Source: an uncultured bacterium (GTDB lineage: Bacteria; Bacillota_I; Bacilli_A; RFN20; CAG-826). From it: a stretch of DNA of 63,790 nt. This document shows, in pieces, positions 5,219 to 22,400 of the stretch. The notes below the pieces were generated by a model, which was not told where the DNA came from, did not search any database, and saw only the letters and a list, made by a program, of their open reading frames with translations. The DNA lies in the NCBI GenBank assembly GCA_949292105.1, contig CASEYK010000023.1, positions 1 through 63,790 of the forward strand, in the 5' to 3' direction. Position 1 is the stretch's first letter, and each line of letters starts with the position of its first letter. The translations under genes and the position numbers were made by a program.

Positions 5219-5288
5219 AATAAGAAGTTATTCAACATTGAATAAATATTTCAAATGTTTATAATCTAATATTTGAGGTGTGTTAAAA

Positions 5289-6743
5289 ATGAACGATTCT
5301 ATTTCCAAATGTTTATCAACATTTCTCGTTTATCGAGATTTGCCAAAAGATGTATCCCCACTTGATTCCAAAATTGACTTGTCTATTGAAAATTTTCCTA
5401 GGGTAGAAATTCGTACCCAAGAGGATTTAGACAATTATCTGAAGGACTTTTTTTCTAAAATTGATTTTACCAAAACAGGAATTTCTCTAAGCGGTGGAAT
5501 TGATTCCGCTCTATTGGCATCATATTGTCCTAAAGGCACAATTGCTTTTACGCTTAAATATCCTGAAGCTGAGGGAGTCGACGAAACTCATCAAGCTAGA
5601 ATCTATGCCGAAAAATTTGGCCTGCGTTTAATAGAAGTGCCTGTCACATTCCAAGATGTTTTGGATAATCAAGATGATTTGATGCTTCAAAAAGGAGAGC
5701 CTTTATCATCAATTGAAATTGGATTGTATAAAATTGGCTTGCGTGCCCTTGATTTCGGCTTAGAAAATATTATTACTGGCTCGGGCGCTGATGGAGTTTT
5801 TGGCGGTTTGTACAATTTGATGTCGAAAAAATGGAAAAATCAAGAATTCATTGAACGATTTACTTTTCTCTCGCCAGAAAAAGTTCTTAAAAATCCTGAA
5901 GAACCATTCGATTTTTATTCTGAATACTTTGGAGATGAATATTTCAATTTGTTTGGTTTTTTATCCGAGATATATGGCGTATCTACGACCAAATACTTTA
6001 ACAATGCTTTTAAATTAGCGGGTATTAAGTATTTATGCCCATATGAATATATTGATCGTTGCTTTGATCTTGATTTTTCAAGAATCGCCAACGGTGAAGA
6101 AAAATATTTTTTGCGCGGATTATTTAAACAAAGAGTAGGAGAATTATTTGTTCCGAGAAAGTATCCTCTGCCACGTCCATTGAATGTTTGGCAAAATTTA
6201 TATGGGCCGCTTAAAAATGAAGAATTTAAACCAAATGCTTATGAACTCTGTACTACAGGAGAAGAAAAATGGATTTTATATTCGCTAGATCATTATCTTT
6301 ATCTCTACAAAAATAAGTGCTTCAACCATTACGACACAATATATACAACAGGCGTTTATGATATGTTTCACATTGGTCATCTTAATGTTTTAAGAAGAGC
6401 AAGCAAAATGTGCAATAAACTTATTGTTGGTGTTACATCAGATGATCTAGTTTCGTATAAAGGCAAACATTCGATTATATGTTTCGAAGATAGAATCAAG
6501 ATAATTAGATGCTTACCCTTCGTTTATAAAGCAATTGTTCAAGAAAACATGGATAAAAAATCAGCATGCGAAAAATATAATGTCGATGCCATTGTTGTTG
6601 GGGACGATTGGAAAGGAACTGACAAATGGAATAAGTATGAAGAAGAATTGTCTGCGGTAGGAGTAGATATAGTATATCTTCCATATACTCAACGCATTTC
6701 TTCAACGAAACTTGTTTCAGACATTAAAGACAAAAAAGATTAG
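5289..6743 (+). CDS. Fused PP-loop (asparagine synthase-like) / TagD-like cytidylyltransferase
   Basis: A 484-residue bifunctional protein. Residues about 60-300 carry the PP-loop SGGIDS (68-73) and a GSGADGVFGG segment (164-173) typical of the ATP-pyrophosphatase domain of asparagine synthase. The N-terminal glutaminase domain with its Cys2 is absent. Residues about 350-480 are a nucleotidyltransferase of the glycerol-3-phosphate cytidylyltransferase (TagD) type: GVYDMFHIGH (355-364), VVGDDW and RISST (469-473). The predicted chemistry is amidation or adenylation of an acid by the first domain and CDP activation of a phospho-alcohol by the second. An SD GAGGTG lies 8 nt before ATG 5289. GTG 5280 is a weaker start. 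It heads a pair with the flippase, 9 nt downstream. Confidence 0.85.
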   Translation: MNDSISKCLSTFLVYRDLPKDVSPLDSKIDLSIENFPRVEIRTQEDLDNYLKDFFSKIDFTKTGISLSGGIDSALLASYCPKGTIAFTLKYPEAEGVDETHQARIYAEKFGLRLIEVPVTFQDVLDNQDDLMLQKGEPLSSIEIGLYKIGLRALDFGLENIITGSGADGVFGGLYNLMSKKWKNQEFIERFTFLSPEKVLKNPEEPFDFYSEYFGDEYFNLFGFLSEIYGVSTTKYFNNAFKLAGIKYLCPYEYIDRCFDLDFSRIANGEEKYFLRGLFKQRVGELFVPRKYPLPRPLNVWQNLYGPLKNEEFKPNAYELCTTGEEKWILYSLDHYLYLYKNKCFNHYDTIYTTGVYDMFHIGHLNVLRRASKMCNKLIVGVTSDDLVSYKGKHSIICFEDRIKIIRCLPFVYKAIVQENMDKKSACEKYNVDAIVVGDDWKGTDKWNKYEEELSAVGVDIVYLPYTQRISSTKLVSDIKDKKD

Positions 6744-6752
6744 TATCATTCA

Positions 6753-8192
6753 ATGGAACAAAAAAAAGCAGCCAAACATAAATCCGAAAAGTTTAAAAAT
6801 ATTCTGCCATTTATTTTTTCTATCATAAGTGCCTTTTTTGGTTTTGGTTTTAATTTTGTTTTAGCTCGATTTTTAGGTTCTTCCGTTTATGGTGATCTTC
6901 AATATTTAGTTTCGATTGCTACGACTTTTTCTTCGTTTTTTGTTTTTGGTCTTTCTTATTTTGTTATTAGGGAAGCAAAAAATTCCGTACACAATGGGCA
7001 ATTGATGGATAAAGTATTTACATTCTTTTTCTTTTTGCTCGCATTTCTTACCCCTATATTATTTTATATTTTGTACAACTATACGACAGGTTTAGAAAAC
7101 AATCTAAATTTATCATTATTGATTTTGGCTGTTGCAATTGTTATGAGTGTTAACACATTGGGCGCATCTTATTACCAAGGAATTGGCAAATACCACGAAT
7201 CCATATTTATTGAAAACATCCTTCCTAAATTGGCAATGTTTGTCTTAACTTTTGTTTTTCTTGGCTTTGGAAAGTTAGTATATTTCAGTGAAAACTATTT
7301 GCTGTATTACCTAGTAATATATGGTTTAATTGCCATATTCATTTTGAGAAAGTTTTTTCATAAACTTTCTTTAACACTCACCAAAAAAGAATATTTAAGC
7401 ATTTCTTTCTTTTTTGGTGTAACTATCACTTATTCACTTACTACGAACTTGACCAAAATTTTTCAAGGTGCTTTTTTCAATAATTCGCAGGTTTTAGGTG
7501 TTATATCTGTTTCACTATCAATGCTTCAATTACTTTCTGTTGTAACAGGAGTTGTTAACAACTTAACAAAACCTTTATATGCAAAGTTAAAGCGTGAAGG
7601 CGATATATCCGGGCTAATTGATATTTATCGACTCAGTACACGCGTAAATTCTTATGTTTGCATCCCGTTTTATATTTTTTTAATTACTCAAAGTGAAAAT
7701 TTTCTTCTGTTTTTTGGGTCCTCTTACACGATTTATCCACTTATTTTAATTATCTTGACTACCCAGTCAGCTGTTAACGAATTGTCTGGACCTACAGGAA
7801 CAATGTTATCAATGACGGGCAATGAAAAATATGAGTTGCTGAACGGCGCTATTAAATTAGGTGTCTTTTCCATTTGCTGTTTTATTTTTTCTTACGATCC
7901 TATTTATGGTTTATGCAATGCTCTTTTGGTTTCGGAAATAATTGTAAATCTTACTAAATATATTGAAGTTTGGGCAATTTTTAAAAGATCGCCAATGAAT
8001 GTTAAAACGATTTTTGGTATGTTGTTAATCTGCCTTTTTGATTTCTTAGCAATCTTCTTTTTGCGATACATCAGTAATTATTGGCTTTGGTTTGTTATAT
8101 CCCTAGTAGTTGGATTAGCTGTTATTTGTGCAAATTTCATTGTTGGGCTACACAAAAATGATTTCAAAAAAATAATGAAAATTGGCGTTTAA
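6753..8192 (+). CDS. Polysaccharide flippase (Wzx/MATE-like)
   Basis: A 479-residue integral membrane protein with about 12-14 hydrophobic helices and the N-terminal signature RFLGSSVYGDLQYL of the polysaccharide-synthesis/Wzx family. It should flip undecaprenyl-linked repeat units to the outer face of the membrane. It starts 9 nt after the fused transferase without a clear SD, suggesting coupling. It is convergent with the minus-strand block, with a 7 bp gap. Length is normal for Wzx. Confidence 0.88.
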   Translation: MEQKKAAKHKSEKFKNILPFIFSIISAFFGFGFNFVLARFLGSSVYGDLQYLVSIATTFSSFFVFGLSYFVIREAKNSVHNGQLMDKVFTFFFFLLAFLTPILFYILYNYTTGLENNLNLSLLILAVAIVMSVNTLGASYYQGIGKYHESIFIENILPKLAMFVLTFVFLGFGKLVYFSENYLLYYLVIYGLIAIFILRKFFHKLSLTLTKKEYLSISFFFGVTITYSLTTNLTKIFQGAFFNNSQVLGVISVSLSMLQLLSVVTGVVNNLTKPLYAKLKREGDISGLIDIYRLSTRVNSYVCIPFYIFLITQSENFLLFFGSSYTIYPLILIILTTQSAVNELSGPTGTMLSMTGNEKYELLNGAIKLGVFSICCFIFSYDPIYGLCNALLVSEIIVNLTKYIEVWAIFKRSPMNVKTIFGMLLICLFDFLAIFFLRYISNYWLWFVISLVVGLAVICANFIVGLHKNDFKKIMKIGV

Positions 8193-8199
8193 CAATTGA

Positions 8200-9051
8200 T
8201 TATTTATTTTCCCAAATATGGTATATTTCAGAATCGATAGTGTAATTTCCAGTCTCGTTAATAAATCTATCATCTTTTTTTGGAGTCATATAATCTGATC
8301 CGTAAGTTTGGTAGAGCATTTTGTTGTATTCAATCGGCGCAGGAAATTTTTGCCCTTCAAAATTAATCAAAACTGTACTTGTAAAACAATCACTATCAAA
8401 AACTTTTTGGTTTATTGGCCGCGATATAAACATTTGTCTGACAAACTTATCAGTTCTTTTACCATATTTTTCTGAATAGTAGTCTATTTTTTTATTTATA
8501 TGGTGCAAACTAAATGGTGATAGAAGTACCTTTAAAAAGAACAAACCTATTCTTTTGGAAAACGTTTGTTTATCGATTAATCTTGTTTTGACATATTGCA
8601 TAAAATTATATGTTTTCATTTTACGCCTTATTTTTTCAAAACATTTTTTATCTTCTGGTATAAAATCTAACACAAAAATGTCGATGTGTACTTGATGATT
8701 ATATTTTTTTGCGAGCATAGCGTTGCTATAAACATTTTTCAAAATAATTCTTATGAATGGATGGATACAATTTTTGTCTTTCTGATAATATTCGGCGTAG
8801 AGAAGTCCGCCGCTATAATTTTCTATGTCGTCAATAAAATTGTACAATTTGTTGAAATCTTCCCTAAGAGTTGCAACATCGACATCATCGTCCCAAGGAA
8901 TAAATCCTTTTTCTCTAACCGCGCCTAGTAGCGTCCCAAACGCCATAAAATATTTAATATTGTGCTCTCGAAGAAAAGAATCTAAAATTACCATTGCTTT
9001 CACATAAATTTTTTGTAATTCTTTTAAACTAATTGCTTGTTTGATACTCAT
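8200..9051 (-). CDS. LicD family phosphotransferase
   Basis: A 283-residue LicD-family enzyme that transfers a phospho-alcohol (phosphocholine, or a polyol/glycerol phosphate in relatives) from a CDP donor to a sugar. The family hallmark is complete: GTLLGA (39-44) followed by GFIPWDDDVDV (49-59). An AAAGGAG SD precedes the ATG. It is the last gene of the minus-strand block, 11 bp after the Wzy-like gene. The fused cytidylyltransferase at 5289 and the LicA-like kinase at 23656 are natural candidates to make its donor. Confidence 0.88.
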   Translation of the reverse strand: MSIKQAISLKELQKIYVKAMVILDSFLREHNIKYFMAFGTLLGAVREKGFIPWDDDVDVATLREDFNKLYNFIDDIENYSGGLLYAEYYQKDKNCIHPFIRIILKNVYSNAMLAKKYNHQVHIDIFVLDFIPEDKKCFEKIRRKMKTYNFMQYVKTRLIDKQTFSKRIGLFFLKVLLSPFSLHHINKKIDYYSEKYGKRTDKFVRQMFISRPINQKVFDSDCFTSTVLINFEGQKFPAPIEYNKMLYQTYGSDYMTPKKDDRFINETGNYTIDSEIYHIWENK

Positions 9052-9062
9052 CTTAAGCTCCT

Positions 9063-10313
9063 TTATATGCTGATTTTAAAATATTTTTGATTATTTTTAT
9101 TTTTTACCATGTAAATTTCAAATAGATTACTATTATCAACTTCGTTGGCAGAACCCATCATAATTGCCATCACGATATAGTCAATTTTAATTGTGTAATT
9201 AGCATAAAAAAATTGTATCAAAAAGATGGCGGTAGCAAACATAATTATTAATTTTTTATCGCTTGTGTTTCTTTTGATAGCTTTGTAGAGCGGAATAAAA
9301 ATTAGTAATTGAAATAAAATCACCTCGATAAATCCATAATTAAACCAAAGCTCAACAATGTTGTTATGAGAAAAGTGGCCAGAAAACGAATAATTGCCAA
9401 ATGTAAATACTCCACCATATCCCAAAAATGGTCTCTTTAAACAAAATTCTATCCCTTCAATAAACAAAAATAGACGGGGCTCGTATGAGTTAAGAATATT
9501 GATTGAAAACAGTGTTTCGATCGAACTAAATAATCTAGTTCTTAAATTAGCCATTGGCGGTAAAAATAGAATTAAAACAAAGCAGCAAGCTGCCACTATA
9601 GTGACTAGTATCGAATATTGAATTTTTTTGCGGCCAAAAAAAGCAAAAATAGCAATTATTAATACTAAAATAGCAATCAATAATGCGCTTCTACTTCCTG
9701 TTACAAAAATTAAAATAACAGAATAAACCGCTGGGATTATTAATAGCCATCGTTTTTTGATTAAGCCAACATATATGTAATAACAAAAAAGATAAAGGAA
9801 AATATATCCAACAATATTCAAATCGCCAAAATCAGCCCCTATTCTCGCCCCATCTAATTTGATTATTGAATCAAAATAAAAAATGGTAAAACTTAGTAAG
9901 AAGCATATACCTGCTATTCCGAATATGGAACATATTGCTACACGATATTTTTTTATTCTCAGTATTTGATAGAAAATAAAACATGTCGCGCTTAATAAAA
10001 GAACAGTGGTATCAAAATAAAAGATGCCATTCAAGATGCTGTTTATAGGAATCAACAAATTGAAAATGATCAGTATAAAAAAGAAATAGTCGAAAATGAG
10101 TTTTTGATATAAAAGGCACCAAGCTAAAATCATTAGAGACAAAATTGCATATAATGCTATATTAACGAGATTCCATGGATATATATAGTTCAATGTCATC
10201 GTGATGTAAAACATCAAGAAAAATAAAATAAAAATAGATAATTCGATAATTATTCTTTGTTTGTTTTTTCCTGAAATAAAACGGAGCCATAAATCACTCA
10301 TGAAGAGTTTCAT
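9063..10313 (-). CDS. O-antigen/capsule polymerase (Wzy-like)
   Basis: A 416-residue protein with about 11-12 membrane helices and one extracellular loop. That loop holds GYGGVFTFGNYSFSGHFSHN followed by NIVELW, the Wzy_C/O-antigen ligase pattern with an acceptor-loop histidine. It should link flipped repeat units into chains. It overlaps the preceding gene by 20 bp, so translation is probably coupled. Sequence identity among Wzy proteins is always low; the call rests on topology and the loop motif. Confidence 0.75.
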   Translation of the reverse strand: MKLFMSDLWLRFISGKNKQRIIIELSIFILFFLMFYITMTLNYIYPWNLVNIALYAILSLMILAWCLLYQKLIFDYFFFILIIFNLLIPINSILNGIFYFDTTVLLLSATCFIFYQILRIKKYRVAICSIFGIAGICFLLSFTIFYFDSIIKLDGARIGADFGDLNIVGYIFLYLFCYYIYVGLIKKRWLLIIPAVYSVILIFVTGSRSALLIAILVLIIAIFAFFGRKKIQYSILVTIVAACCFVLILFLPPMANLRTRLFSSIETLFSINILNSYEPRLFLFIEGIEFCLKRPFLGYGGVFTFGNYSFSGHFSHNNIVELWFNYGFIEVILFQLLIFIPLYKAIKRNTSDKKLIIMFATAIFLIQFFYANYTIKIDYIVMAIMMGSANEVDNSNLFEIYMVKNKNNQKYFKISI

Positions 10314-12054
10314 AAGATTTTTTTCTCCTATTTAATAATTTTTTAACAATTTTTGGCAAAAATAAGACTGTAATAATGCACAAAAAAGATATTAAGCAAA
10401 ACAAACCACCAAACGAGTTTAGAATCTTATATGAAGAAAAATTAAAATTATTTGCTACTTGATATATATTGAGGCAAACGCTAACAAATATAGGAGGAAT
10501 TAGTATTAGCAATGTTAACAACAAGTTAAAAATAATTGGTGAATGTTTACAGAAACTTTCAAGAGATTTTGAATATTTGTAAATTAGCAGGGCAAAAATT
10601 ATTTCCAATATTATGCCAGCAAAAATAAAAAGATATTTTGCAATGTTGCTCCAGTTGCTTTCTTTACCGAAAAGCGAAATAGTGTATAAATTAGATAATT
10701 CGGTAAATTCAGAAATTTCTGTCTTTAATCCCTGAATATAACTATATCCTATGAAGCAATCGCCTTCTTGGAAATAGGGCAGCAACGATGAACTAACTAG
10801 CGTCTGGGTATTAATGTAACTAGACGAGGAATCAAAACACATATTCGCATAAAGACTCTCGCTTAAAAAACTAAGATTTAAGTATGCAAAATCGCCTAAG
10901 AACATCTTAAAAATGGGCGTATGTCCATAATCGTCAACAAGTAAATTTGCAATTGAATATTCGTATTGATACTCGCCAATGGTGAGTATTACATGTTGCT
11001 CGGGATTGGCAATATAATCTTCGATTTTCTCATCTTCGTTTTTAATTTCTTCAATCAGCGATGTGGTTAGGAATAATGTTTTTGAATTATTGTCTCGGAA
11101 ATCGTTGGGCAAGTAAAATTTTCTTTTAAGAGCGATTTTTGAAAAGACATTGTATGTTGATATTGATTCATCGTTTGTTGGGGCTGCATATCCCAAATCT
11201 GTTCCAGATGAAATTAGTGTTATATTTTTAGTTTTTCCGTTTGCAAAGGTTATTTTAATATCGGATAAATCTTTAGAATACGCCCTTATGTAAAACGGAA
11301 CATACTTAGTTTCTCTAAAATCACTAGTTGAAACATAATAATATGGCGTGAAAGAATTATATCCACTAGCTAAATTCATTATTTCATTTGCACCACCTTC
11401 ACCAAGAATGTTGAGGGGAGTATTTGAAATATATTCGGCGTGACTATAATTATTGTCACTTTCATTAGCTTTTTTACCTATATATTGATATGTTGAGTCG
11501 ATTTGCGTGCTTATATCAAAAAAACCAGAAAAGTAAAAACAAGCATTACCAAAACACCCTAATAAAAGGGTTAATAGTAGCATCCATATTCTTTTTGTTT
11601 TAATCTTTGGAACAAACAAAATTTTATTATTAAATTTCACCGACAGATGTTTTTTTTCTACAAAATTTGCTTCAGTGCTATATTTTGTCAACTGAAATTG
11701 TTTAATAAATGAAGGAATTTTAGTTTTTTCGCAACCACTAAAAATTAAAACAGGGCAATCAAAACGGCAATTTAATTTAGAAACCATATTTTGATCATTC
11801 ATTAAAATTCCATCTTTATCGTCAATGCAAATTATTTTAACAGTTAGTTTTTGCGATTTGTTTCTTAAAAAATTATCAATAGATTTTTTTTGATTAACAA
11901 TTTTTTGACTATTAAAACAATTTTTTGCAATTGACCATTTTTTTGCGATAGATACTATTTTTGAGAACAATTCAAAATCATTTGTGAAGTACACATCGTT
12001 TTCAACTACAAAATTTTGTTCATCTAGTCTCAGAATCATATACTTATTTTGCAT
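10294..12054 (-). CDS. Membrane protein of the polysaccharide locus, unknown function
   Basis: A 586-residue protein not assigned to a family. A cytosolic N-terminal part (1-150) precedes one membrane helix (about 156-178), then roughly 290 extracellular residues rich in Ser/Tyr/Asn. Three more helices lie near 475-495, 512-532 and 550-572, with a basic tail. The overlaps with both neighbours (20 bp and 11 bp) show it belongs to the operon. A long outer loop held by helices suggests a role in export, polymer modification or chain-length control, but no catalytic motif is visible. Confidence 0.75.
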   Translation of the reverse strand: MQNKYMILRLDEQNFVVENDVYFTNDFELFSKIVSIAKKWSIAKNCFNSQKIVNQKKSIDNFLRNKSQKLTVKIICIDDKDGILMNDQNMVSKLNCRFDCPVLIFSGCEKTKIPSFIKQFQLTKYSTEANFVEKKHLSVKFNNKILFVPKIKTKRIWMLLLTLLLGCFGNACFYFSGFFDISTQIDSTYQYIGKKANESDNNYSHAEYISNTPLNILGEGGANEIMNLASGYNSFTPYYYVSTSDFRETKYVPFYIRAYSKDLSDIKITFANGKTKNITLISSGTDLGYAAPTNDESISTYNVFSKIALKRKFYLPNDFRDNNSKTLFLTTSLIEEIKNEDEKIEDYIANPEQHVILTIGEYQYEYSIANLLVDDYGHTPIFKMFLGDFAYLNLSFLSESLYANMCFDSSSSYINTQTLVSSSLLPYFQEGDCFIGYSYIQGLKTEISEFTELSNLYTISLFGKESNWSNIAKYLFIFAGIILEIIFALLIYKYSKSLESFCKHSPIIFNLLLTLLILIPPIFVSVCLNIYQVANNFNFSSYKILNSFGGLFCLISFLCIITVLFLPKIVKKLLNRRKKSYETLHE

Positions 12055-13138
12055 TTTCTACAAACAATTTTAAATATTCTTCTGCAGTTTGGTCGATAGA
12101 ATATTTTTTTGATGACTCAACAGCATTGTAAGAAATTTGCTGATATTTATTAGGACAAGTTATTATATCAATTATTTTGTCTGAATATTTCTCTGGAAAT
12201 TCGTTTGAAATCAAGAATCCATTTACTCCATCATTGATTATCGTTTTATTTCCCAAGCAATCACTAGCTAACATGATGCAGCCAGATGAAAGTGCTTCTA
12301 TGATTGAAATTGATTTCATTTCCCACACAGAACACAGAAAAGAAATTTTGGCATTTGACAATATTTCTGGAATTTTTCTATTGTCGACTTGACCTGCTAA
12401 GATTATCGATTCTGACAGCCCTTTTTCGGCGATTGTTTTTTCAATTTCCGGCTTTAAACTTCCGCTGCCGTATAGCACCGCCTTAAAATTCTTTACTTTT
12501 TTAATAACTGTTTCAAAAATTTTGATAGCTAAGGCATGATTTTTTTGCTCTTCGAATCTTGCAAACATAACTAAGTCTGTTTTTCGATTTTTAAGTTCAT
12601 TGGTATTCGCAAACTTAGAAATATCAACGCCATTCTCTATGACTGGTACGTATTGTAATTTGTAATATTTTTTTACATTATCATCGTCGATAATGTTGAC
12701 TGGTATTGCAATTTTCTTTCTAAAAATATGCTTCATCAAGTAATTAGAAATTTTTCCACCTTCCAATCCTGGCAAAGTGTGAATTGTGTGAAGGATAACA
12801 ACTTTTTTTCTTAAATTATTTTTCCTTGTAGCTAAATAAGTCGTTATTAGTGCGTTGTTTTCCGTGTGTATAAAATGAATATTATGTTTGATAATTATAT
12901 CCTTTAACCTTTTTGCACATTTAAAATCAATGCCTTTTTTCTTTCCAAGAAAAAAATATTCAATGTTATTCTGCTCCAACGTATCAATAAATGCTTTCGT
13001 GTGCTCATTGAATAGAATAGCAACTTTTAGATTTACTTTCTTGTTCATTGCCAAACATAAATTTATGGCGAATGTTTCCGCTCCGCCGGTTGGTTTTAAT
13101 GAATTGATAACTTCCAACACATTGATATTTTTGTTCAT
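12044..13138 (-). CDS. Glycosyltransferase family 4
   Basis: A 364-residue GT-B enzyme that adds a sugar to the lipid-linked unit. The acceptor-side motif SLKPTGGAETFAINL is at 13-27. The donor-side half has VIENGVDISKF, RFEEQKNHALAI and SVWEMKSISIIEALSSGCI, the Glycos_transf_1 pattern with the EX7E-type glutamate region. Soluble or membrane-associated at the inner face. It overlaps the downstream membrane-protein gene by 11 bp. Sugar specificity cannot be read. Confidence 0.88.
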   Translation of the reverse strand: MNKNINVLEVINSLKPTGGAETFAINLCLAMNKKVNLKVAILFNEHTKAFIDTLEQNNIEYFFLGKKKGIDFKCAKRLKDIIIKHNIHFIHTENNALITTYLATRKNNLRKKVVILHTIHTLPGLEGGKISNYLMKHIFRKKIAIPVNIIDDDNVKKYYKLQYVPVIENGVDISKFANTNELKNRKTDLVMFARFEEQKNHALAIKIFETVIKKVKNFKAVLYGSGSLKPEIEKTIAEKGLSESIILAGQVDNRKIPEILSNAKISFLCSVWEMKSISIIEALSSGCIMLASDCLGNKTIINDGVNGFLISNEFPEKYSDKIIDIITCPNKYQQISYNAVESSKKYSIDQTAEEYLKLFVENAK

Positions 13139-13184
13139 ATGAATATTTATTGCCTCTTTTAAAACTAATTTTCGTCTTGATTAA

Positions 13185-14243
13185 TTAAATGATATTGTTC
13201 TTTTTAAGAAAATCAACAAAACTTTCACGACTATATTTATTTTTCTCTAAATAGAGTTCATTTCTTTTTCGATTCAATATTTGTTTGTTGTTGTAGATAA
13301 ATATTAATCGTTCAATCAATTGTTCTAAATTATTCATTTCAAAAAAGAAACTATTTGCTTCAGACATGATATATTTGCTCGATTCAAATCTTGAAGAAAT
13401 GGTGGGGACACCAGCAATGAACATATCGATAACGGAGCCAGGAGCACATTCCTGAGAAAAATGTGACGGGAACATATGCAAATCATATTCGCTGAGTCGC
13501 TCATATGATTTTTTATCGGACGCTCTCAATGACAATTTCAAATAATTTATGTAAGAATATTTTTTGCTATATTCTATTACTTTTTTCTCTGTTTCGATAG
13601 TACACGTTTCTTTGCGATTTACGCCACCCGCGATGTCAAGAGTAAAGCATATTTTATTCATTTTTTCATTTACAGCTATGACAGCGTTGATGGCGTCTAG
13701 AACACCTTTTTTCTCGTGTATTCGGGAGAAGTAGATAGCTTTTAATACCGTGTCATTTGTATAAATTTTCTCTCGCTGCTCAAGATCATATATTTTTTTT
13801 ACGCAAGGAAATAAGAGATATTTTGGAGAGTCAACTTTTTGTTTAAGAGTTTGTTCAACAATAGGACTTTCGACGATTAAATAATCACATTTATTAATTT
13901 CGTCATAATAGATTTTTTTATCCTCAAAACCTATATCGCCATTTCCGATGATATAGAACCATTTGCTTGTTTTTTTATTTTTAGGTTGCCATTTATTAAA
14001 AAGTCTTAGAGCAAGACTGCCACCAACAATGCATTTTGAAACGAATAAAACATCATATCGCCTAATTTTGAGCAATAGATATAATTTTAAAATTTGAAAA
14101 ATTTGGATTTTAGTTAAATCGATTACATCTATTTTGCAATTTAACTGTTTTAAGCACCACAAAACCTCTTTTGATTTATTCCTTTCACCATCATACATTT
14201 TTTTCTTATTTGGCAAAGAAGCGATGAACAATAACCTTTTCAT
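13185..14243 (-). CDS. Glycosyltransferase (GT4-like)
   Basis: A 352-residue protein with a recognisable GT-B C-terminal half: YFSRIHEKKGVLDAINAV, then ECAPGSVIDMFIAGVPTISS and an Asn/Glu tail typical of GT4 enzymes. The N-terminal half is more divergent (LLFIASLPNKKKMYDGER). It is the first gene of the minus-strand block, with a GGAGAG SD before its ATG, and 46 bp separate it from the next gene. It faces the divergent GT2 gene at 14359. Confidence 0.82.
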   Translation of the reverse strand: MKRLLFIASLPNKKKMYDGERNKSKEVLWCLKQLNCKIDVIDLTKIQIFQILKLYLLLKIRRYDVLFVSKCIVGGSLALRLFNKWQPKNKKTSKWFYIIGNGDIGFEDKKIYYDEINKCDYLIVESPIVEQTLKQKVDSPKYLLFPCVKKIYDLEQREKIYTNDTVLKAIYFSRIHEKKGVLDAINAVIAVNEKMNKICFTLDIAGGVNRKETCTIETEKKVIEYSKKYSYINYLKLSLRASDKKSYERLSEYDLHMFPSHFSQECAPGSVIDMFIAGVPTISSRFESSKYIMSEANSFFFEMNNLEQLIERLIFIYNNKQILNRKRNELYLEKNKYSRESFVDFLKKNNII

Positions 14244-14358: not shown

Positions 14359-15120
14359 ATGGAAATCAATCGCGATATTGTTGTTAGCATAATAACTCCT
14401 TCCTACAGGAGTAAAAATTTTATCTTTGATACTTATAAAAGCGTCATAAATCAAAAATGTTTAACTTGGGAATGGATTATTGTCGACGATTGTTCTGATG
14501 ACGGATCATTTGAATTTATTGAACATTTGGTGGCGGGTGATTCGCGTATACATGTCTTGAAAACGGACAAGAATAGCGGAACATCTGTTGCAAGAAATAT
14601 AGGATTGAAATTTGCAAAAGGCAGGTACATAACATTTTTGGACTCTGATGATTTATTAGATGAAAATTACTTGTCGAATCAACTGGAATTTATCCAAACC
14701 AATGGTCCGTTAATTACATCAAGTTATCGCAGAAAAGCTGAACACACATGTACTGATTTTATAGTTCCAGAACGAATTGATTACAAATTAGCTTTGAAAG
14801 GTAACCCAATGTCGTGCTTAACAACTATGTATGATAGAACAGCAATTGGAGAAGTATATTTTCCAGAAGACATTAGCAAAGCTGAAGATTATGTGTTTTG
14901 GTTGAATATTCTTAAAAAAGGTTTTGTCGCCGTGGGCAACAAAAACGTGCTAGCTACATATATTATTCATGCCAATAGCAAATCACACAATAAATGGAAA
15001 CTCATCAAACACATGTACTACATTTATCATAAAACACAAAAAATTAATTGGCTATCGAGTATGTTTTATGTACTAAGATGGGCATTTTACGGATTAAAAA
15101 AATATAAAAATGTTCATTAA
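14359..15120 (+). CDS. Glycosyltransferase family 2
   Basis: A 253-residue GT-A enzyme. VSIITPSYRSKNFIFDTYKS begins the Rossmann-like fold, IVDDCSDDGS carries the nucleotide-binding aspartates, and TFLDSDD is the metal-binding DXD region. EDYVFWLNIL matches the catalytic-base ED motif. It transfers one sugar in assembly of the surface polysaccharide. The start is fixed by the consensus promoter 8 nt upstream. Confidence 0.9.
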   Translation: MEINRDIVVSIITPSYRSKNFIFDTYKSVINQKCLTWEWIIVDDCSDDGSFEFIEHLVAGDSRIHVLKTDKNSGTSVARNIGLKFAKGRYITFLDSDDLLDENYLSNQLEFIQTNGPLITSSYRRKAEHTCTDFIVPERIDYKLALKGNPMSCLTTMYDRTAIGEVYFPEDISKAEDYVFWLNILKKGFVAVGNKNVLATYIIHANSKSHNKWKLIKHMYYIYHKTQKINWLSSMFYVLRWAFYGLKKYKNVH

Positions 15121-15202: not shown

Positions 15203-16405
15203 ATGTCTTCTATATCATTACGAGAAATACGCAAAAATTGCAGATTAACACAACAAGAAGCAAGCCAAATTGTAGGTATGCCATTAAGAACCTATGTTTC
15301 TTATGAGCAGTGTGAATTAAAAGCTGATCAACTCAAACTCGAAAGAGTCAAAGAGAAGTTAATTGAATATGCCGCCAAAAATGTTTCTATTTTAAAAAAC
15401 AAAATTTTACTTATAACAGGTGGAACAGGTTCGTTTGGCCATGCAGTAGTTGATAGGTTTTTGAATACTGATGTAAAAGAAATTAGAATCTTATCTCGTG
15501 ATGAAAAAAAACAAGATGATATGCGCAGAGCGTACAATAATGATAAATTAAAGTTTTATATTGGTGATGTTAGAAATTTGGATTCAATTATCGATGCTTT
15601 TAGAGGAGTTGATTATGTATTCAATGCTGCGGCTTTAAAACAAGTTCCTTCTTGCGAATTTTACCCAATGGAAGCCGTGCGAACTAATATCATTGGTTCT
15701 GATAATGTTATAACCGCTTGTGTTCGTAACCATGTTAAAAAAGCCATTTTTCTTTCAACTGATAAAGCGGCATATCCAATCAATGCTATGGGCATTACGA
15801 AAGCTTTAATGGAAAAGAATGTTATTGCACGTAGTAGACAAATGCTACCAGGTGATACGGTTTTATGCTTAACTCGCTATGGAAATGTTATGGCGTCTCG
15901 CGGTAGTGTTATTCCTTTATTTTTAAATCAAATTCATGAAGGAAAACCAATCACAATCACCAACCCAGACATGACTAGATTTATGATGACGCTCGATGAT
16001 GCTGTTGATTTGGTACTCTATGCATTTGAACACGGCGAACAAGGTGATTTGTTTGTACAAAAAGCACCTGCTGCAACGATTGAAACTCTCGCTCAAGCTG
16101 TCATCAACCTAACTGGTAGCAAAACTGGCATCAGCTATATTGGAACAAGACATGGTGAAAAGTTATACGAAACACTTGTCACACAAGAAGAAATGCTAAA
16201 AGCAATTGATTTAGGCAACTTTTTCTGCGTTAAAGCGGACAATAGAGATTTAAATTACGACAAATATTTTTCCAAAGGAAATAAAAAACTCAATTTAGGA
16301 GAAAGTTACACATCTCATAATACAGGTCGCCTTGATGTCAAAGGCATGGAAGAATTACTTAAAAAATTAGAATTGTTTGGCGGACCTGTTAAGCAACACG
16401 AATAG
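15203..16405 (+). CDS. fnlA: HTH-fused UDP-GlcNAc 4,6-dehydratase/epimerase (FnlA-like)
   Basis: A 400-residue protein. Residues about 6-47 form an XRE/Cro helix-turn-helix (LREIRKNCRLTQQEASQIV, TYVSYEQ). Residues about 65-400 are an extended SDR of the FnlA/CapE type: GGTGSFG (73-79), AAALKQVP, STDKAAYPINAMGITK (185-200) and RYGNVMASRGS. It should convert UDP-GlcNAc to 4-keto-6-deoxy intermediates, the first step to UDP-N-acetyl-L-fucosamine. Ordinary FnlA is about 340 residues; the 60 extra residues are the HTH. No in-frame start lies between the domains, so the fusion is real in sequence. FnlC follows at 11 bp. The HTH may allow autoregulation, which is inference. Confidence 0.9.
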   Translation: MSSISLREIRKNCRLTQQEASQIVGMPLRTYVSYEQCELKADQLKLERVKEKLIEYAAKNVSILKNKILLITGGTGSFGHAVVDRFLNTDVKEIRILSRDEKKQDDMRRAYNNDKLKFYIGDVRNLDSIIDAFRGVDYVFNAAALKQVPSCEFYPMEAVRTNIIGSDNVITACVRNHVKKAIFLSTDKAAYPINAMGITKALMEKNVIARSRQMLPGDTVLCLTRYGNVMASRGSVIPLFLNQIHEGKPITITNPDMTRFMMTLDDAVDLVLYAFEHGEQGDLFVQKAPAATIETLAQAVINLTGSKTGISYIGTRHGEKLYETLVTQEEMLKAIDLGNFFCVKADNRDLNYDKYFSKGNKKLNLGESYTSHNTGRLDVKGMEELLKKLELFGGPVKQHE

Positions 16406-16416
16406 AGGGTAATGAA

Positions 16417-17565
16417 ATGAATTTTAAAGATAACGGAAAATTAAAACTCTTAATTATTGTTGGCACTCGCCCTGAAATTATTCGTTTGGCTGCTGTCATT
16501 AATAAGTGTCGTGACTATTTTGACACTTTACTTGTTCACACCGGTCAAAATTATGATTACACATTGAATGGTGTATTTTTTAAAGATTTAGGTATTAAAG
16601 ATCCTGATATATATCTCGATGCAGTCGGTAAAGATTTAGGCGAAACCATGGGCAATATTATCGCTAAATCATATCAAGTCATGGTTGAAACTAAGCCAGA
16701 TGCTGTTTTAGTTTTAGGCGATACAAATAGTTGTTTATCTGTTATTGGCGCCAAACGATTGCATATACCCATTTTTCATATGGAGGCCGGTAATCGCTGC
16801 AAAGACGAGTGTTTGCCAGAAGAGACAAATAGAAGAATCGTTGACATTATTTCTGATGTCAACCTCGCCTATAGCGAGCATGCACGACGATATTTAGCTG
16901 ATTGTGGGTTACCAAAAGAGAGAACATATGTCACTGGTTCGCCGATGGCAGAAGTTCTTACTAATAATCTTGAACAAATAGTGGATAGTGACATTCTCAA
17001 AAGACTTAATCTCGAAAAAAATAAATATATTTTGTTGAGCGCTCATCGAGAAGAAAATATCGATACAGATAAGAACTTTTATTCACTTTTCACTGCCATC
17101 AATAAATTGGCTGAAAAATATGATATGCCAATTTTATATAGTTGCCATCCTCGCAGCAAAAAGAAACTAGAGGCATCTGGTTTTAAGTTAGATAAAAGAG
17201 TTGTTATGCATGAGCCATTAGGTTTTCATGATTATAACAATTTACAAATGAATGCCTTTTGCGTAGTTAGCGATAGTGGAACATTACCTGAAGAAAGTTC
17301 TTTTTATGCCTCTATTCATAAGCCGATTGCTGCAGTTTGTATTAGAACATCAACCGAAAGACCTGAGGCTTTAGATAATGCTTGTTTCGTTTTAGCGGGT
17401 ATTGATGAAAAAAATTTGTTACAAGCCGTTGAAGTTGCCGTTAAAGATAAAGAAGGATGCAAACCAGTTGATGATTATACCGATACAAATGTCAGCGATA
17501 AAGTTGTTAAACTCATACAATCGTATACTGGTGTTGTTAACAAAATGGTTTGGAGAAAAGAATAA
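16417..17565 (+). CDS. fnlC: UDP-GlcNAc 2-epimerase family (FnlC/WbjD-like)
   Basis: A 382-residue non-hydrolysing UDP-HexNAc 2-epimerase. GTRPEIIRLAAVI is the N-terminal signature. HTGQNYDYTLNGVFF, HMEAGNRC, EETNRRIVD and SDSGTLPEESSF follow in family order. With FnlA and FnlB upstream and downstream, it should act as the final C2 epimerase giving UDP-L-FucNAc, although WecB-like enzymes look similar. It is 11 bp from fnlA with a GAGGG-type SD and its TAA shares a base with the fnlB ATG. Confidence 0.88.
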   Translation: MNFKDNGKLKLLIIVGTRPEIIRLAAVINKCRDYFDTLLVHTGQNYDYTLNGVFFKDLGIKDPDIYLDAVGKDLGETMGNIIAKSYQVMVETKPDAVLVLGDTNSCLSVIGAKRLHIPIFHMEAGNRCKDECLPEETNRRIVDIISDVNLAYSEHARRYLADCGLPKERTYVTGSPMAEVLTNNLEQIVDSDILKRLNLEKNKYILLSAHREENIDTDKNFYSLFTAINKLAEKYDMPILYSCHPRSKKKLEASGFKLDKRVVMHEPLGFHDYNNLQMNAFCVVSDSGTLPEESSFYASIHKPIAAVCIRTSTERPEALDNACFVLAGIDEKNLLQAVEVAVKDKEGCKPVDDYTDTNVSDKVVKLIQSYTGVVNKMVWRKE

Positions 17566-18608
17566 TGAAAGTTCTCGTCACCGGTTCCAATGGTTTTATT
17601 GGTAAACATATGTGTGTCCTGCTTAAAAGAAAAGGGCATGAAGTTTTTGCTTATGATTTAGAATCTTCCGAAGAGGATTTGCGTAAATATGTTTTGCAAG
17701 CTGAATTTATTGTCCATTTGGCAGGCATCAACCGTCCTTTAACTAATGAAGAGTTTTATGATGGCAATTCAAATTTTACTAAAAAACTTATCGATTTGAT
17801 AAAGACTAATAATCTAATGACACCTATTATTATGTCGAGCTCAATTCAGGCTGTGCTTGATAATGATTATGGCAAATCTAAAAAAATGGGCGAGGATTAT
17901 TTATTTGCTTCTAGATTACCTGTTTATATTTATCGATTAGCAAACGCTTTTGGAAAATGGTGCCGCCCTAATTATAATTCGGCCGCTGCAACTTTTTGCT
18001 ACAACATTGCTCATGATTTGCCGATTGAGATAAGAGATAGAAATTATGTTGTTCACTACAATTATATCGATGATATCGTTGATGAATTTTTAAAAGTAAT
18101 TGAAGCCAAAGAACATCATGGTTCAAAAGATATTTTGTATATAGCACCAACCTACGATTGTTCTTTGGGAAAATTGGCTGATTTGCTATACTATTTCAAA
18201 GGTGAAATAGAATCCGATAGGCATCTACCTATTATTCATGACGAATTTGAATTAAAACTATTCAAAACATTTTGTGATTATTTGAGTGATCCTGGATATA
18301 GTTTCAATTACGCAGCAGATTCTAGAGGATATTTTGAGGAAGTCTATAAATCCAAAAAGTGGGGACAAATCAGTGATAATGTTTCTTATCCTGGCATCAT
18401 CAAAGGCGGGCATTATCACACACATAAAAAAGAGATATTTTATACTGTTATTGGCGAATCAGAAATCATTCAACAAAATGTTCAAACTGGAGAAATTATT
18501 GTTAGTATCGTAAATGGAGATAACCCACAGTTGGTTTCTATAAAAGTACTTTATACGCATAGTATTCAAAACATAGGCAATGGTATTAGCCATACGTTAA
18601 TGAGTTAA
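17565..18608 (+). CDS. fnlB: FnlB/WbjC-like reductase with C-terminal cupin
   Basis: A 347-residue bifunctional enzyme. GSNGFIGKHMCVLLKRKGHE is the NAD(P) Rossmann motif near the N-terminus, and a cupin domain near the C-terminus reads GIIKGGHYHTHKKEIFYTVI. This domain order is that of the reductase/3-epimerase that makes UDP-2-acetamido-2,6-dideoxy-L-talose from the FnlA product. ATG 17565 is preferred: GGAG lies 12 nt upstream and it overlaps the fnlC stop (TAATG). A longer start at 17550 lacks support. Confidence 0.88.
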   Translation: MKVLVTGSNGFIGKHMCVLLKRKGHEVFAYDLESSEEDLRKYVLQAEFIVHLAGINRPLTNEEFYDGNSNFTKKLIDLIKTNNLMTPIIMSSSIQAVLDNDYGKSKKMGEDYLFASRLPVYIYRLANAFGKWCRPNYNSAAATFCYNIAHDLPIEIRDRNYVVHYNYIDDIVDEFLKVIEAKEHHGSKDILYIAPTYDCSLGKLADLLYYFKGEIESDRHLPIIHDEFELKLFKTFCDYLSDPGYSFNYAADSRGYFEEVYKSKKWGQISDNVSYPGIIKGGHYHTHKKEIFYTVIGESEIIQQNVQTGEIIVSIVNGDNPQLVSIKVLYTHSIQNIGNGISHTLMS

Positions 18609-18633
18609 CAGATTTCATATTAATGAAGTCTGT
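18608..18633 (+). terminator. Hairpin terminator after fnlB
   Basis: ACAGATTTCAT and ATGAAGTCTGT form an 11-position stem with one mismatch and a four-base loop. A pyrimidine-rich tail follows but no long T run, so termination may be partial. Confidence 0.5.
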
Positions 18634-18637
18634 CTTC

Positions 18638-18666
18638 TTGCTATACTTACATAATTTAGATAAAAT
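18638..18666 (+). promoter_or_regulatory. Promoter TTGCTA-17-TAAAAT, 7 nt before ATG
   Basis: TTGCTA (18638-18643), 17 bp, TAAAAT (18661-18666), then 7 nt to ATG 18674. No SD, so a leaderless start is likely. Confidence 0.65.
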
Positions 18667-18673
18667 GTAAAAG

Positions 18674-20545
18674 ATGAAAAAAACGAAGAACAAAAAAATA
18701 GCTCATTATTTGTATATTCCTGCTGACTTGCTAATAGGATTTATTGTTAATTTACTTTCATTTCTAAGTTACTTCTCTTTTAATACCTTTTCAACCTACT
18801 GGATTGATTTTACTGTATTTTCGCTAATTGTGTCTTTTGTTTTGGTGGTTGTTTTATTTTTTGCCGGGACATACAAAATTTTAACTCGTAACTTCGGCAT
18901 TAGCGACGCACTCAAAACAATGATTATCGTATTTGTGGTCGAATTGGTGTCATTTTGTGGAATCTTTTTAATACCTAATTATAAAGAATTATTTACTGTC
19001 CGTTTCATTTTTCCTTATTTTTTATCGGCAATTGTTCTAGTGCTTTTAATTCCAGCGTTTCGAGCATGGCACAGGATTTTCGCCTTATTTAATTATTATT
19101 TCAAGCAAAAAACTCAAAAGACTAGAATTAGAACTCTTATAGTTGGCGCTGGCGGTGCTGCTAAAATAGTTATAGACGATAGTGTCAGCAACAAAAAAAG
19201 TAGAAACAATATTGTTGTTTTGGCAGATGATGATCCAAACAAGATTGGTGGTACATTTAGTGGTATTCCTGTTGTTGGCCCAATTAGTAATTTGGCTAAT
19301 TTTATTGATACATACAAAATTGAAGAAGTCATTATTGCTATCTCAGATTTAGAAGAACAAAAATTAAGAACGATACTTGACTACCTAGAGCCATGCGACG
19401 TTCGCGTAAGAAGAATGCCTTTGTTGTCCGAAATGGATTCGCCGAATGCAAAACATATAATTGATGTTGATTTAAACGATTTGCTTTGCCGAGACCCAAT
19501 TAAGTTAGATAATAAAGAAATTAACACAATGCTTCAAAGTAAAATCGTTTTAGTCACCGGTGCCGGAGGATCTATAGGTTCAGAGCTTGTAAGACAAATT
19601 ATTAAAACAAATCCATCGCTACTGATTTTGTTTGATATCTATGAAAATGGCGTATACGACATTCAACAAGAGTTAAATAGATACATTAAAAATAATTCTT
19701 CAATAAAAACTCAATTGGTCACTTTGATAGGATCGACATACAACGAAAAAAGAATAAGACAAATTTTTAAACAATTTAAGCCAAATTATGTTTATCATGC
19801 CGCTGCTTATAAGCATGTTCCACTTATGGAAGATTCTCCAATGGAAGCAATTAGAACAAATGTAATTGGCACTTATAATGTGGCAAAGCTATGTGAAGAA
19901 TTTAAAGTCAAGAAAATGGTCTTGGTTTCAACTGACAAAGCTGTTAGACCAACTAATGTAATGGGAGCTACAAAACGTTTTGCCGAAACAATCATTCAAT
20001 TCTTTGCAAATAAATCAAATTCAACTGTTTATGCCGCAGTTCGATTTGGAAATGTTTTAGGATCTAATGGTTCTGTCGTCCCGTTGTTTAGAAAACAAAT
20101 CGAAGAAGGCGGTCCAGTAACTATCACACATAAAGATATCATCAGATATTTTATGACAATACCAGAGGCTGTTTCGCTAATTCTTCAGTGTGGTCTTTTT
20201 GCAAAGGGTGGCGAAATTTTTATCCTAGATATGGGAAAACCTGTAAAAATCTACAATCTCGCTCTCAAAATGATTAGACAAGCAGGTTTTATTCCTTATC
20301 GCGATATTGACATTGTTGAGACAGGTTTAAGACCTGGGGAAAAATTGTATGAGGAGTTGTTGCTCGATAAGAAAACGCAGGCCAAGACAAAAAACAATCG
20401 TATTTTTATTGAGCAAAAAGATATTATTTATCCAATTGAACAAGAAATTGTTGATATATCGAAAGCGTTTGATATGGAAAAAAATGATGATGTAAAAAAG
20501 CTGTTAGCAACTATAATTACATCTTACAAGATTGATTTGCGGTAG
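18674..20545 (+). CDS. Membrane nucleotide-sugar 4,6-dehydratase (CapD/PglF/WbpM type)
   Basis: A 623-residue protein with four or five N-terminal membrane helices (within 12-135). A first Rossmann-like domain starts at about 155 (VGAGGAAKIVIDD) and a catalytic SDR domain at about 294 (VTGAGGSIGSELVRQI). AAAYKHVPLMEDSPMEA, STDKAVRPTNVMGATK and RFGNVLGSNGSVVPLF are classic for the inverting/retaining UDP-GlcNAc 4,6-dehydratases. It feeds the priming transferase that begins one base into its stop codon. Together they look like the entry to the lipid-linked unit, for example a 2,4-diamino- or 6-deoxy-HexNAc primer. Confidence 0.9.
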   Translation: MKKTKNKKIAHYLYIPADLLIGFIVNLLSFLSYFSFNTFSTYWIDFTVFSLIVSFVLVVVLFFAGTYKILTRNFGISDALKTMIIVFVVELVSFCGIFLIPNYKELFTVRFIFPYFLSAIVLVLLIPAFRAWHRIFALFNYYFKQKTQKTRIRTLIVGAGGAAKIVIDDSVSNKKSRNNIVVLADDDPNKIGGTFSGIPVVGPISNLANFIDTYKIEEVIIAISDLEEQKLRTILDYLEPCDVRVRRMPLLSEMDSPNAKHIIDVDLNDLLCRDPIKLDNKEINTMLQSKIVLVTGAGGSIGSELVRQIIKTNPSLLILFDIYENGVYDIQQELNRYIKNNSSIKTQLVTLIGSTYNEKRIRQIFKQFKPNYVYHAAAYKHVPLMEDSPMEAIRTNVIGTYNVAKLCEEFKVKKMVLVSTDKAVRPTNVMGATKRFAETIIQFFANKSNSTVYAAVRFGNVLGSNGSVVPLFRKQIEEGGPVTITHKDIIRYFMTIPEAVSLILQCGLFAKGGEIFILDMGKPVKIYNLALKMIRQAGFIPYRDIDIVETGLRPGEKLYEELLLDKKTQAKTKNNRIFIEQKDIIYPIEQEIVDISKAFDMEKNDDVKKLLATIITSYKIDLR

Positions 20546-21180
20546 TGTTTAAGATGGATGTGAAATTTAGCGTACGCCAAAAAATATATTTGCCATTTAA
20601 AAGATTTTTTGACATTTTCTTGTCGTTGCTGACGATTATTGTATTCAGTTGGCTGTATTTGCTCATAGCGATTATTATTAAAATGACATCTAAAGGGCCA
20701 GTATTTTTCAAACAAAAACGCGTTGGAAAAAACAAAAAAATTTTCAATATTTTAAAATTTCGAACAATGAGAATTGATGCTCCGAGCAATGTGCCCACTC
20801 ATTTACTCGATAATCCAGAAATATACATCACCAAATTTGGAAGATTTTTGCGTAAGACATCTCTTGATGAATTACCGCAAGTATTTAATATTTTTGTTGG
20901 ACAAATGTCAATTGTTGGTCCCCGCCCCGCTTTGTGGAATCAAGAGGATTTAATTATTGAAAGAGATAAATATGGAGCCAATCGCATAAGACCAGGTTTG
21001 TCTGGCTGGGCCCAATGCCACGGACGCGACACTTTGCCTATTGAGAAAAAAGCAGAACTTGATGGCTATTATGTTAAAAAGTTTAATATATGGATGGACA
21101 TTAAAATAATTTTTTTAACGGCAATCAAAGCTTTTGTTGGCAAAGATGAAAAGGAAGGCAAACAAAGCGATGACAAATAG
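20545..21180 (+). CDS. Priming sugar transferase (PglC/WcaJ family)
   Basis: A 211-residue (GTG 20545) or 208-residue (ATG 20554) monotopic phosphoglycosyl transferase. KRFFDIFLSLL starts the re-entrant membrane helix. KGPVFFKQKRVGKNKKIF, KFRTM and TSLDELPQVFNIFVGQMSIV, GPRP are the catalytic core of the bacterial sugar transferase family. Small size places it with PglC, not the larger WbaP. It puts the first sugar phosphate on undecaprenyl phosphate. GTG 20545 overlaps the preceding stop (TAGTG), suggesting translational coupling. Confidence 0.9.
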   Translation: MFKMDVKFSVRQKIYLPFKRFFDIFLSLLTIIVFSWLYLLIAIIIKMTSKGPVFFKQKRVGKNKKIFNILKFRTMRIDAPSNVPTHLLDNPEIYITKFGRFLRKTSLDELPQVFNIFVGQMSIVGPRPALWNQEDLIIERDKYGANRIRPGLSGWAQCHGRDTLPIEKKAELDGYYVKKFNIWMDIKIIFLTAIKAFVGKDEKEGKQSDDK

Positions 21181-21199
21181 TCCTAACTATATTTATAAT
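21170..21199 (+). promoter_or_regulatory. Promoter ATGACA-18-TATAAT, 7 nt before ATG
   Basis: ATGACA (21170-21175), 18 bp, TATAAT (21194-21199), then 7 nt to ATG 21207. No SD. Confidence 0.6.
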
Positions 21200-21206
21200 T
21201 GCTAAT

Positions 21207-22400
21207 ATGAAAATTATTATTTTTGGGATAGGGTATGTTGGATTATCCAACGCTATTGTTTTAAATAAACACAACGATGTTGTTTTAATTGATGTCGATA
21301 AAACTAAAATTGATTTGATTAATAAAGGACATCCGACTATTGTTGATAAGGACATAGAAGACTATTTTAAGAGCAATGACACACATTTGTTAGCAACGGA
21401 TGATTTAAAAATTTGTAAAAATGCTGATATCGTTTTGATTGCGACACCAACGGACTATGATTCACAAATGAATCGTTTTGATACATCGAGTATTGAAAAT
21501 GTTTTGAATAAATTGCTAAAAATCAATAGAAAGTGTATGGTGATTATCAAATCAACTGTCCCGGTTGGATACACAAGACATTTAATTAATCAATTTGGAT
21601 ATGACAATATCTTTTTTTCTCCTGAATTTTTGCGAGAGGGACATGCTCTATTTGACAATCTATATCCATCTAGAATTATTGTTGGTGTCTCTAAAAAAGA
21701 TAAAAAACATATTGAAAAAGCACAGAAGTTTGCCAGCCTGTTGAAAGATGGTGCGTTAAAAAAAGACACATTATCTCTTATTTTGGGGTTAGAAGAAGCT
21801 GAGTCAGTTAAATTATTTTCTAATACATATTTAGCAATGCGAGTTGCGTATTTTAACGAACTTGATACATTTGCTGAAACAAATGACTTAAACACACAAG
21901 ATATTATCGATGGAGTTTGCGCTGATCCGCGAATAGGCGATTTTTATAACAATCCTTCATTTGGATATGGAGGATATTGCTTGCCAAAAGATACTAAGCA
22001 ACTAAATGCTAATTTTTCTAATGTCCCAAGCTGTTTGCCCCAAGCGGTTGTTGAATCTAATGCAACAAGAAAAAAATACATCGCCAATCAAATTCTTGCT
22101 CGCATAAATGACGGCGACACAATTGGCATTTTTCGACTTGTTATGAAAACTGGAACATCCGATTTTCGACAAAGTTCAATTCAAGACATCATTGATTGCA
22201 TTTTAAATAGCAAACGAAAAGTTCGCGTTATTATATACGAACCATTATCTAGCAGGAAGGATTTTATGGGAGTAGAAATCATCGATAACATCGATGAATT
22301 TAAACATCAATCTAATCTTATTGTCGCCAATCGTTTTGAAGAATGTCTTAACGATGTTGTTCAAAAACTCTATACACGTGATTTATTCAAGAGAGATTAG
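21207..22400 (+). CDS. ugd: UDP-glucose/nucleotide-sugar 6-dehydrogenase
   Basis: A 397-residue dehydrogenase that oxidises a UDP-sugar to the uronic acid with two NAD+. GIGYVGLSNAIVL (7-19) is the NAD-binding motif, KSTVPVGYT and SPEFLREGHALFD follow, and NPSFGYGGYCLPKDTKQL carries the catalytic Cys258. Length fits the short bacterial Ugd group. Its product would be a uronic acid residue, a plausible substrate for the PP-loop amidating domain at 5289. It is a separate unit with its own leaderless-type promoter. Confidence 0.92.
   Translation: MKIIIFGIGYVGLSNAIVLNKHNDVVLIDVDKTKIDLINKGHPTIVDKDIEDYFKSNDTHLLATDDLKICKNADIVLIATPTDYDSQMNRFDTSSIENVLNKLLKINRKCMVIIKSTVPVGYTRHLINQFGYDNIFFSPEFLREGHALFDNLYPSRIIVGVSKKDKKHIEKAQKFASLLKDGALKKDTLSLILGLEEAESVKLFSNTYLAMRVAYFNELDTFAETNDLNTQDIIDGVCADPRIGDFYNNPSFGYGGYCLPKDTKQLNANFSNVPSCLPQAVVESNATRKKYIANQILARINDGDTIGIFRLVMKTGTSDFRQSSIQDIIDCILNSKRKVRVIIYEPLSSRKDFMGVEIIDNIDEFKHQSNLIVANRFEECLNDVVQKLYTRDLFKRD

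Follow-up and report, generated by a model that had tools for sequence, protein, structure and literature searches.

The window, a 63,790-nt stretch of an uncultured gut bacterium (GenBank assembly GCA_949292105.1, contig CASEYK010000023.1), carries at positions 5289–6743 of the plus strand a single uninterrupted reading frame that encodes 484 amino acids (aa) from an ATG at 5289, or 487 aa from an alternative in-frame GTG at 5280. Pfam analysis of the whole frame returned two families above their cut-offs, Asn_synthase (PF00733; aa 62–191, 60.1 bits against 21) and CTP_transf_like (PF01467; aa 352–475, 66.7 bits against 21), and no class-II glutaminase domain. The first part of the gene (5289–6332) is predicted to encode an asparagine synthetase-like (AsnS) adenylating amide-synthetase domain with an SGGIDS P-loop (aa 68–73), Glu143, Asp168, Lys272 and Arg276, and the second part (6333–6740) a TagD-like cytidylyltransferase (CTase) domain with HIGH, DDW and RISST motifs, the HIGH motif (HxGH) and the PF01467 match assigning it to the cytidylyltransferase superfamily. 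The original prediction, which had placed SGGIDS, HIGH and RISST motifs in one polypeptide without a glutaminase domain, was correct on both counts. When an AlphaFold model of the fusion (mean pLDDT 71, 7-row alignment) was searched with Foldseek, one half matched AsnB, carbapenam synthetase and beta-lactam synthetase, and the other half matched the Fom1 CTase domain and TagD.

The fusion gene is part of a glycan cluster. A gene for an oligosaccharide flippase (6753–8192, plus strand; PF01943, 37.6 bits against 28.2) starts 10 bases past the fusion stop codon, and is followed on the minus strand by genes for a LicD-family phosphotransferase (8200–9051; PF04991, 121.2 bits against 22.6), which is the proposed transferase of the CDP-activated group, a Wzy/O-antigen-ligase-like membrane protein (9063–10313; PF04932), and an uncharacterised membrane protein with two glycosyltransferases (10294–14243); the flippase and LicD genes are those anticipated by the original prediction. 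Further genes on the plus strand encode a TuaG-like glycosyltransferase (14359–15120) and nucleotide-sugar and initiating-transferase functions (15203–22400), which are cluster context only and, as read from their translations, resemble FnlA/C/B, a CapD-like protein, a priming glycosyltransferase and a UDP-sugar dehydrogenase. The first three of these have homologues (88%, 79% and 59% identity) beside a broken fusion in L063. In L051, one strand carries in order a GT2 gene homologous to the TuaG-like gene, a fusion, a flippase (66% identical to that of the window), two glycosyltransferases, the membrane protein, Wzy and a LicD (60% identical) that ends the block. Because the window holds the same genes and differs by an inversion that spans LicD through the glycosyltransferases, we assign LicD to the fusion. 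The membrane protein at 10294–12054 gave no Pfam match and has a 45% identical homologue in the same glycan cluster of L051. A choline/ethanolamine-kinase-like gene (PF01633; 23659–24516) lies at the end of the cluster, and a transposase-like frame, recognised by eye, lies at the window edge (51–1310).

Recurrence and decay of the fusion

Three further genomes encode the fusion intact, at 76% (G019, measured across the full protein), 71% (G018) and 60% (G236) identity. Nei–Gojobori estimates gave dN/dS values of 0.10–0.22 for the AsnS domain, rough ratios because they lie near synonymous saturation, and dN values of 0.15–0.24 for the CTase domain, where synonymous sites are mostly saturated. 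Both domains are clearly under purifying selection. A true two-domain fusion had been predicted, with a frameshift joining two genes named as the finding that would speak against it; the frame is single and intact in all four genomes, and no such frameshift was seen. That a frameshift or mis-assembly produced the gene is exceedingly improbable, since the same continuous fusion occurs in four genomes and its AsnS–CTase domain order is the reverse of the usual CTase–AsnS gene order in Bacilli, although a related gene in G428 is split into two frames (L063:8367–9820).

G427 retains only fragments of the fusion and of LicD. Because the gene is split in G428 and reduced to fragments in G427, the AsnS–CTase unit is accessory and able to decay, and it is being lost in the genus represented by L063 and L065. 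Broken fusions were observed in two genomes of this genus, and LicD is truncated in L065.

The two domains compared with known enzymes

The AsnS domain shares with AsnB (PF00733/TIGR01536) the synthetase-domain fold, the SGGxDS P-loop and the active-site Asp and Lys, and it belongs by these features to the AsnB-fold adenylating synthetases, but it scored only 48.8 bits against the cut-off of 267.1 for the curated NCBIfam AsnB profile. All 18 AsnS family members compared share S68, G69, G70, D72, S73, E143, D168, K272 and R276. At position 165 the four intact fusions have Ser (as in the window) or Met, and the remaining 14 members have Glu or Asp. A Glu and an Arg of AsnB take part in catalysis; beta-lactam and carbapenam synthetases are AsnB-like enzymes that form amides without using ammonia, and they retain a vestigial N-terminal domain. 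In profile alignments to AsnB and to the beta-lactam and carbapenam synthetases (1jgt and 1q15), which are remote (22–40 bits) and make residue matches tentative, E143 aligned with an Arg of AsnB (TIRAS) and with a Glu of the two synthetases; residue 165 aligned with the Glu of AsnB (Glu348, in GEGSDE) and with a Tyr of the other two. The fusion therefore differs from AsnB at Glu143, at position 165 of its fused members and in having no glutaminase domain, and from the two synthetases, to which its similarity is remote (21.6 and 26.2 bits), in carrying Ser instead of Tyr and no vestigial N-terminal domain. Because Glu143 replaces the AsnB Arg, as it does in the beta-lactam and carbapenam synthetases, the domain is compatible with an amine that may not be ammonia. 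The chemistry of fused AsnS domains may also differ from that of unfused members, because Ser or Met occupies the position of Glu in AsnB and of Glu or Asp in the unfused proteins.

AsnS family members occur in 5 of 392 genomes sampled from the phylum, 7 of 395 from the class and 9 of 224 from the window's family, three samples that overlap, and in 5 of 192 genomes from the order of L002. Plain asparagine synthesis is unlikely, since so few genomes of the window's family have the gene; the argument rests on the family and not on redundancy in the window genome, where no other Asn_synthase match was found. G136 has a full AsnB besides its AsnS family gene.

The CTase domain resembles the glycerol-3-phosphate cytidylyltransferase TagD in fold, in the HxGH and DDW-G motifs and in the IS-S/T-T end motif. 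In CTases of the fusion type, however, the Arg of TagD RTEGISTT is Tyr, the Arg of TagD IRYVD is Pro or Lys, and an extra TxKW-YE segment is present. Synthesis of plain CDP-glycerol, the other finding that the original prediction had named against itself, is not the default reading of the predicted product, because the domain falls below the cut-off of the curated glycerol-3-phosphate CTase profile TIGR01518 (81.8 against 165.4 bits) and is without the two TagD arginines. At L091:1438–2646 and L092:736–1896 a short-chain dehydrogenase and a related TagD-like CTase form one protein, which is predicted to serve another CDP-alcohol route in the window's family; this suggests by analogy that the partner in such fusions provides the substrate of the CTase. 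A PdxA-like gene adjoins a TagD-like CTase at L089:1474–2723, as judged by eye.

AsnS, CTase and phosphotransferase genes in other genomes

Within the window's family (220–224 genomes), eight genomes have a CTase that reaches 226 bits or more with the profile of AsnS-linked CTases, and all eight have AsnS, which in G428 is a fragment. One further genome with AsnS, G427, holds remnants only and no CTase at this score, and the next-best CTases (188 bits or less) occur in 13 genomes, none with AsnS. In the CTase tree the fused proteins group together (support 1.0), and AsnS-linked CTases lie within one broad part, the two exceptions inside it being the CTase of G746 and the pair of dehydrogenase–CTase fusions. 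The G746 CTase is 72% identical to that of L. plantarum and adjoins LicD in a genome in which no AsnS family member was found; this type of CTase therefore does not require the AsnS step.

Adjacent but unfused AsnS and CTase genes were found in L004/L124, L052, L061, L068, L069, L119–L122 and the phage contig L012. Unfused genes of both kinds thus occur together in further Bacilli, on L. plantarum plasmids and in a phage, and in most cases a phosphotransferase adjoins them, although their companions vary. L. plantarum plasmids carry a CDP-glycerol-type transferase, CTase and AsnS in this order, L052 and L068 carry LicD, CTase and AsnS, and L061 carries a divergent LicD, a CTase and two AsnS genes. 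In L062 and L064 an amidohydrolase stands between CTase and AsnS; LicD adjoins the CTase in L062, and the L064 contig ends soon past it. In L002, from an uncultured group, LicD and AsnS are fused to each other and followed by a CTase. L069 holds the end of a CTase, an AsnS remnant and a flippase. AsnS precedes CTase in L119–L122; no phosphotransferase was found near the pair in L119, and Pfam did not recognise the genes beside it in L121 and L122 as phosphotransferases. L123 has one AsnS copy without an adjoining CTase. In the 166-kb phage contig L012, where TGA encodes Trp, CTase, AsnS and a Stealth phosphotransferase lie in a row (7545–10122). Pfam confirmed LicD, Glyphos_transf and Stealth among the partner phosphotransferases examined, and several neighbour genes were identified from translations rather than profiles. 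AsnS, CTase and a phosphotransferase of the LicD, CDP-glycerol or Stealth type form a conserved recurring unit, and this recurrence, together with the LicD–AsnS fusion of L002, upholds the functional link to LicD put forward in the original prediction.

The tandem AsnS genes after the CTase of L061 (8743–10853) lie outside any capsule locus. The intervening genes of L062 (7374–8942) and L064 (10675–12243) belong to the Amidohydro_3 family; an L. plantarum plasmid carries the remnant of an amidohydrolase gene, to which they show no detectable relation. The L012 unit lies near apparent virion genes; it may decorate the virion or change the host surface. No AsnS family member was found in 247 sampled Bacteroidota genomes, in a search run without a positive control, and the phage record collection and other plasmids yielded no further AsnS matches.

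Proposed pathway and its alternatives

Guided by the fold and the conserved residues, we propose that the AsnS-like domain would adenylate a carboxylate with ATP and couple it to a small amine, which may be ammonia, so that a small phospho-alcohol or phospho-acid comes to bear an amide. Because the units of L061, L062 and L119 lie outside capsule loci and hold little else, this precursor should be drawn from central metabolism. The fused CTase would then couple the phosphate to CTP, producing a CDP-linked amide donor, and LicD, or elsewhere a CDP-glycerol-type or Stealth phosphotransferase, would move the amide group with its phosphate onto a glycan or glycolipid of the cell surface. The fusion would thus be the front half of a surface-decoration pathway, a reading that we consider probable. 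It resembles the lic phosphocholine system, which also combines a CTase with a LicD phosphotransferase acting on surface glycans; however, the partner there is a choline kinase and here AsnS. The kinase-like gene of the window was rejected as a pathway member, since it does not track the unit, being present with and without it and absent from some genomes that have it.

The strongest objection to this pathway is G746, with the same kind of CTase beside LicD and no AsnS. For this reason the order of amidation and CTP activation is one that we infer, and the steps could be reversed, with the CTase first making a CDP-linked acid that AsnS would amidate afterwards, either while it is still on the nucleotide or once the group has been transferred. 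We regard this as unlikely but deserving of weight: G746 fits it, as does L002, where AsnS is fused to LicD rather than to the CTase, whereas the dehydrogenase–CTase fusions by analogy place the partner before CTP activation, an argument that is not decisive.

Alternatively, the two domains could serve separate targets, the CTase making an ordinary CDP-alcohol and AsnS amidating an acid of the glycan, such as a uronic acid. In O-antigen pathways, amidation of uronic acids has been proposed for AsnB-like proteins such as WbpS and WbtH, which lends this some plausibility. Yet L061 and L062, which lie outside glycan clusters, have units of little or nothing more than AsnS, CTase and LicD; AsnS is fused in two different combinations; and in the window's family the CTase subfamily linked to AsnS is distributed as AsnS is, so that we give separate targets a small chance. 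It is very unlikely that the AsnS domain has lost catalysis and acts as a scaffold or regulator of the CTase, as the Ser or Met at position 165 of all four fused members might suggest, because the P-loop, Glu143, Asp168, Lys272 and Arg276 are invariant and dN/dS is about 0.1–0.2. Activation of a phosphonate, as in Pnt pathways, was prompted by the Fom1 CTase domain being the top Foldseek CTase match, and was rejected as highly improbable: PEP mutase was found in none of the 10 genomes with the unit (no match at E ≤ 1e-5), although the same loose search was positive in six control genomes.

Returning to the amidated, CDP-activated group, the original prediction had called an amide-bearing surface substituent undescribed, which was too strong: D-glyceramide 2-phosphate, an amide-bearing phosphorylated alcohol on a surface glycan, is reported for the O-polysaccharide of Providencia alcalifaciens O22, in work cited in PMC6222762. 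The likeness is a chemical analogy only, and phosphoglyceramide is one plausible candidate substrate, with a rather low chance of being the right one. Searches of the openly licensed literature for AsnS with CTase, LicD, glyceramide, Providencia O-antigen and L. plantarum exopolysaccharide found no description of the AsnS–CTase unit. We tentatively suggest, as a possibility short of an even chance, that the unit makes an undescribed class of surface-glycan donor. A ligase that has no glutaminase domain and resembles beta-lactam synthetase would attach an amine different from ammonia to a carboxylate, and the amide, in CDP-linked form, would be handed to transferases of the LicD, CDP-glycerol or Stealth type; the carriers of this route would be bacteria, plasmids and a phage.

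If the proposed pathway is true, an amide-bearing group would be added to the CDP-activated decorations known from bacterial surfaces, and likely genes would be named for substituents of the glyceramide-phosphate kind. The combination of AsnS, CTase and phosphotransferase would then serve as a marker gene set for finding such substituents, and L. plantarum strains with the plasmid-borne cluster would be food organisms in which the chemistry could be read directly.
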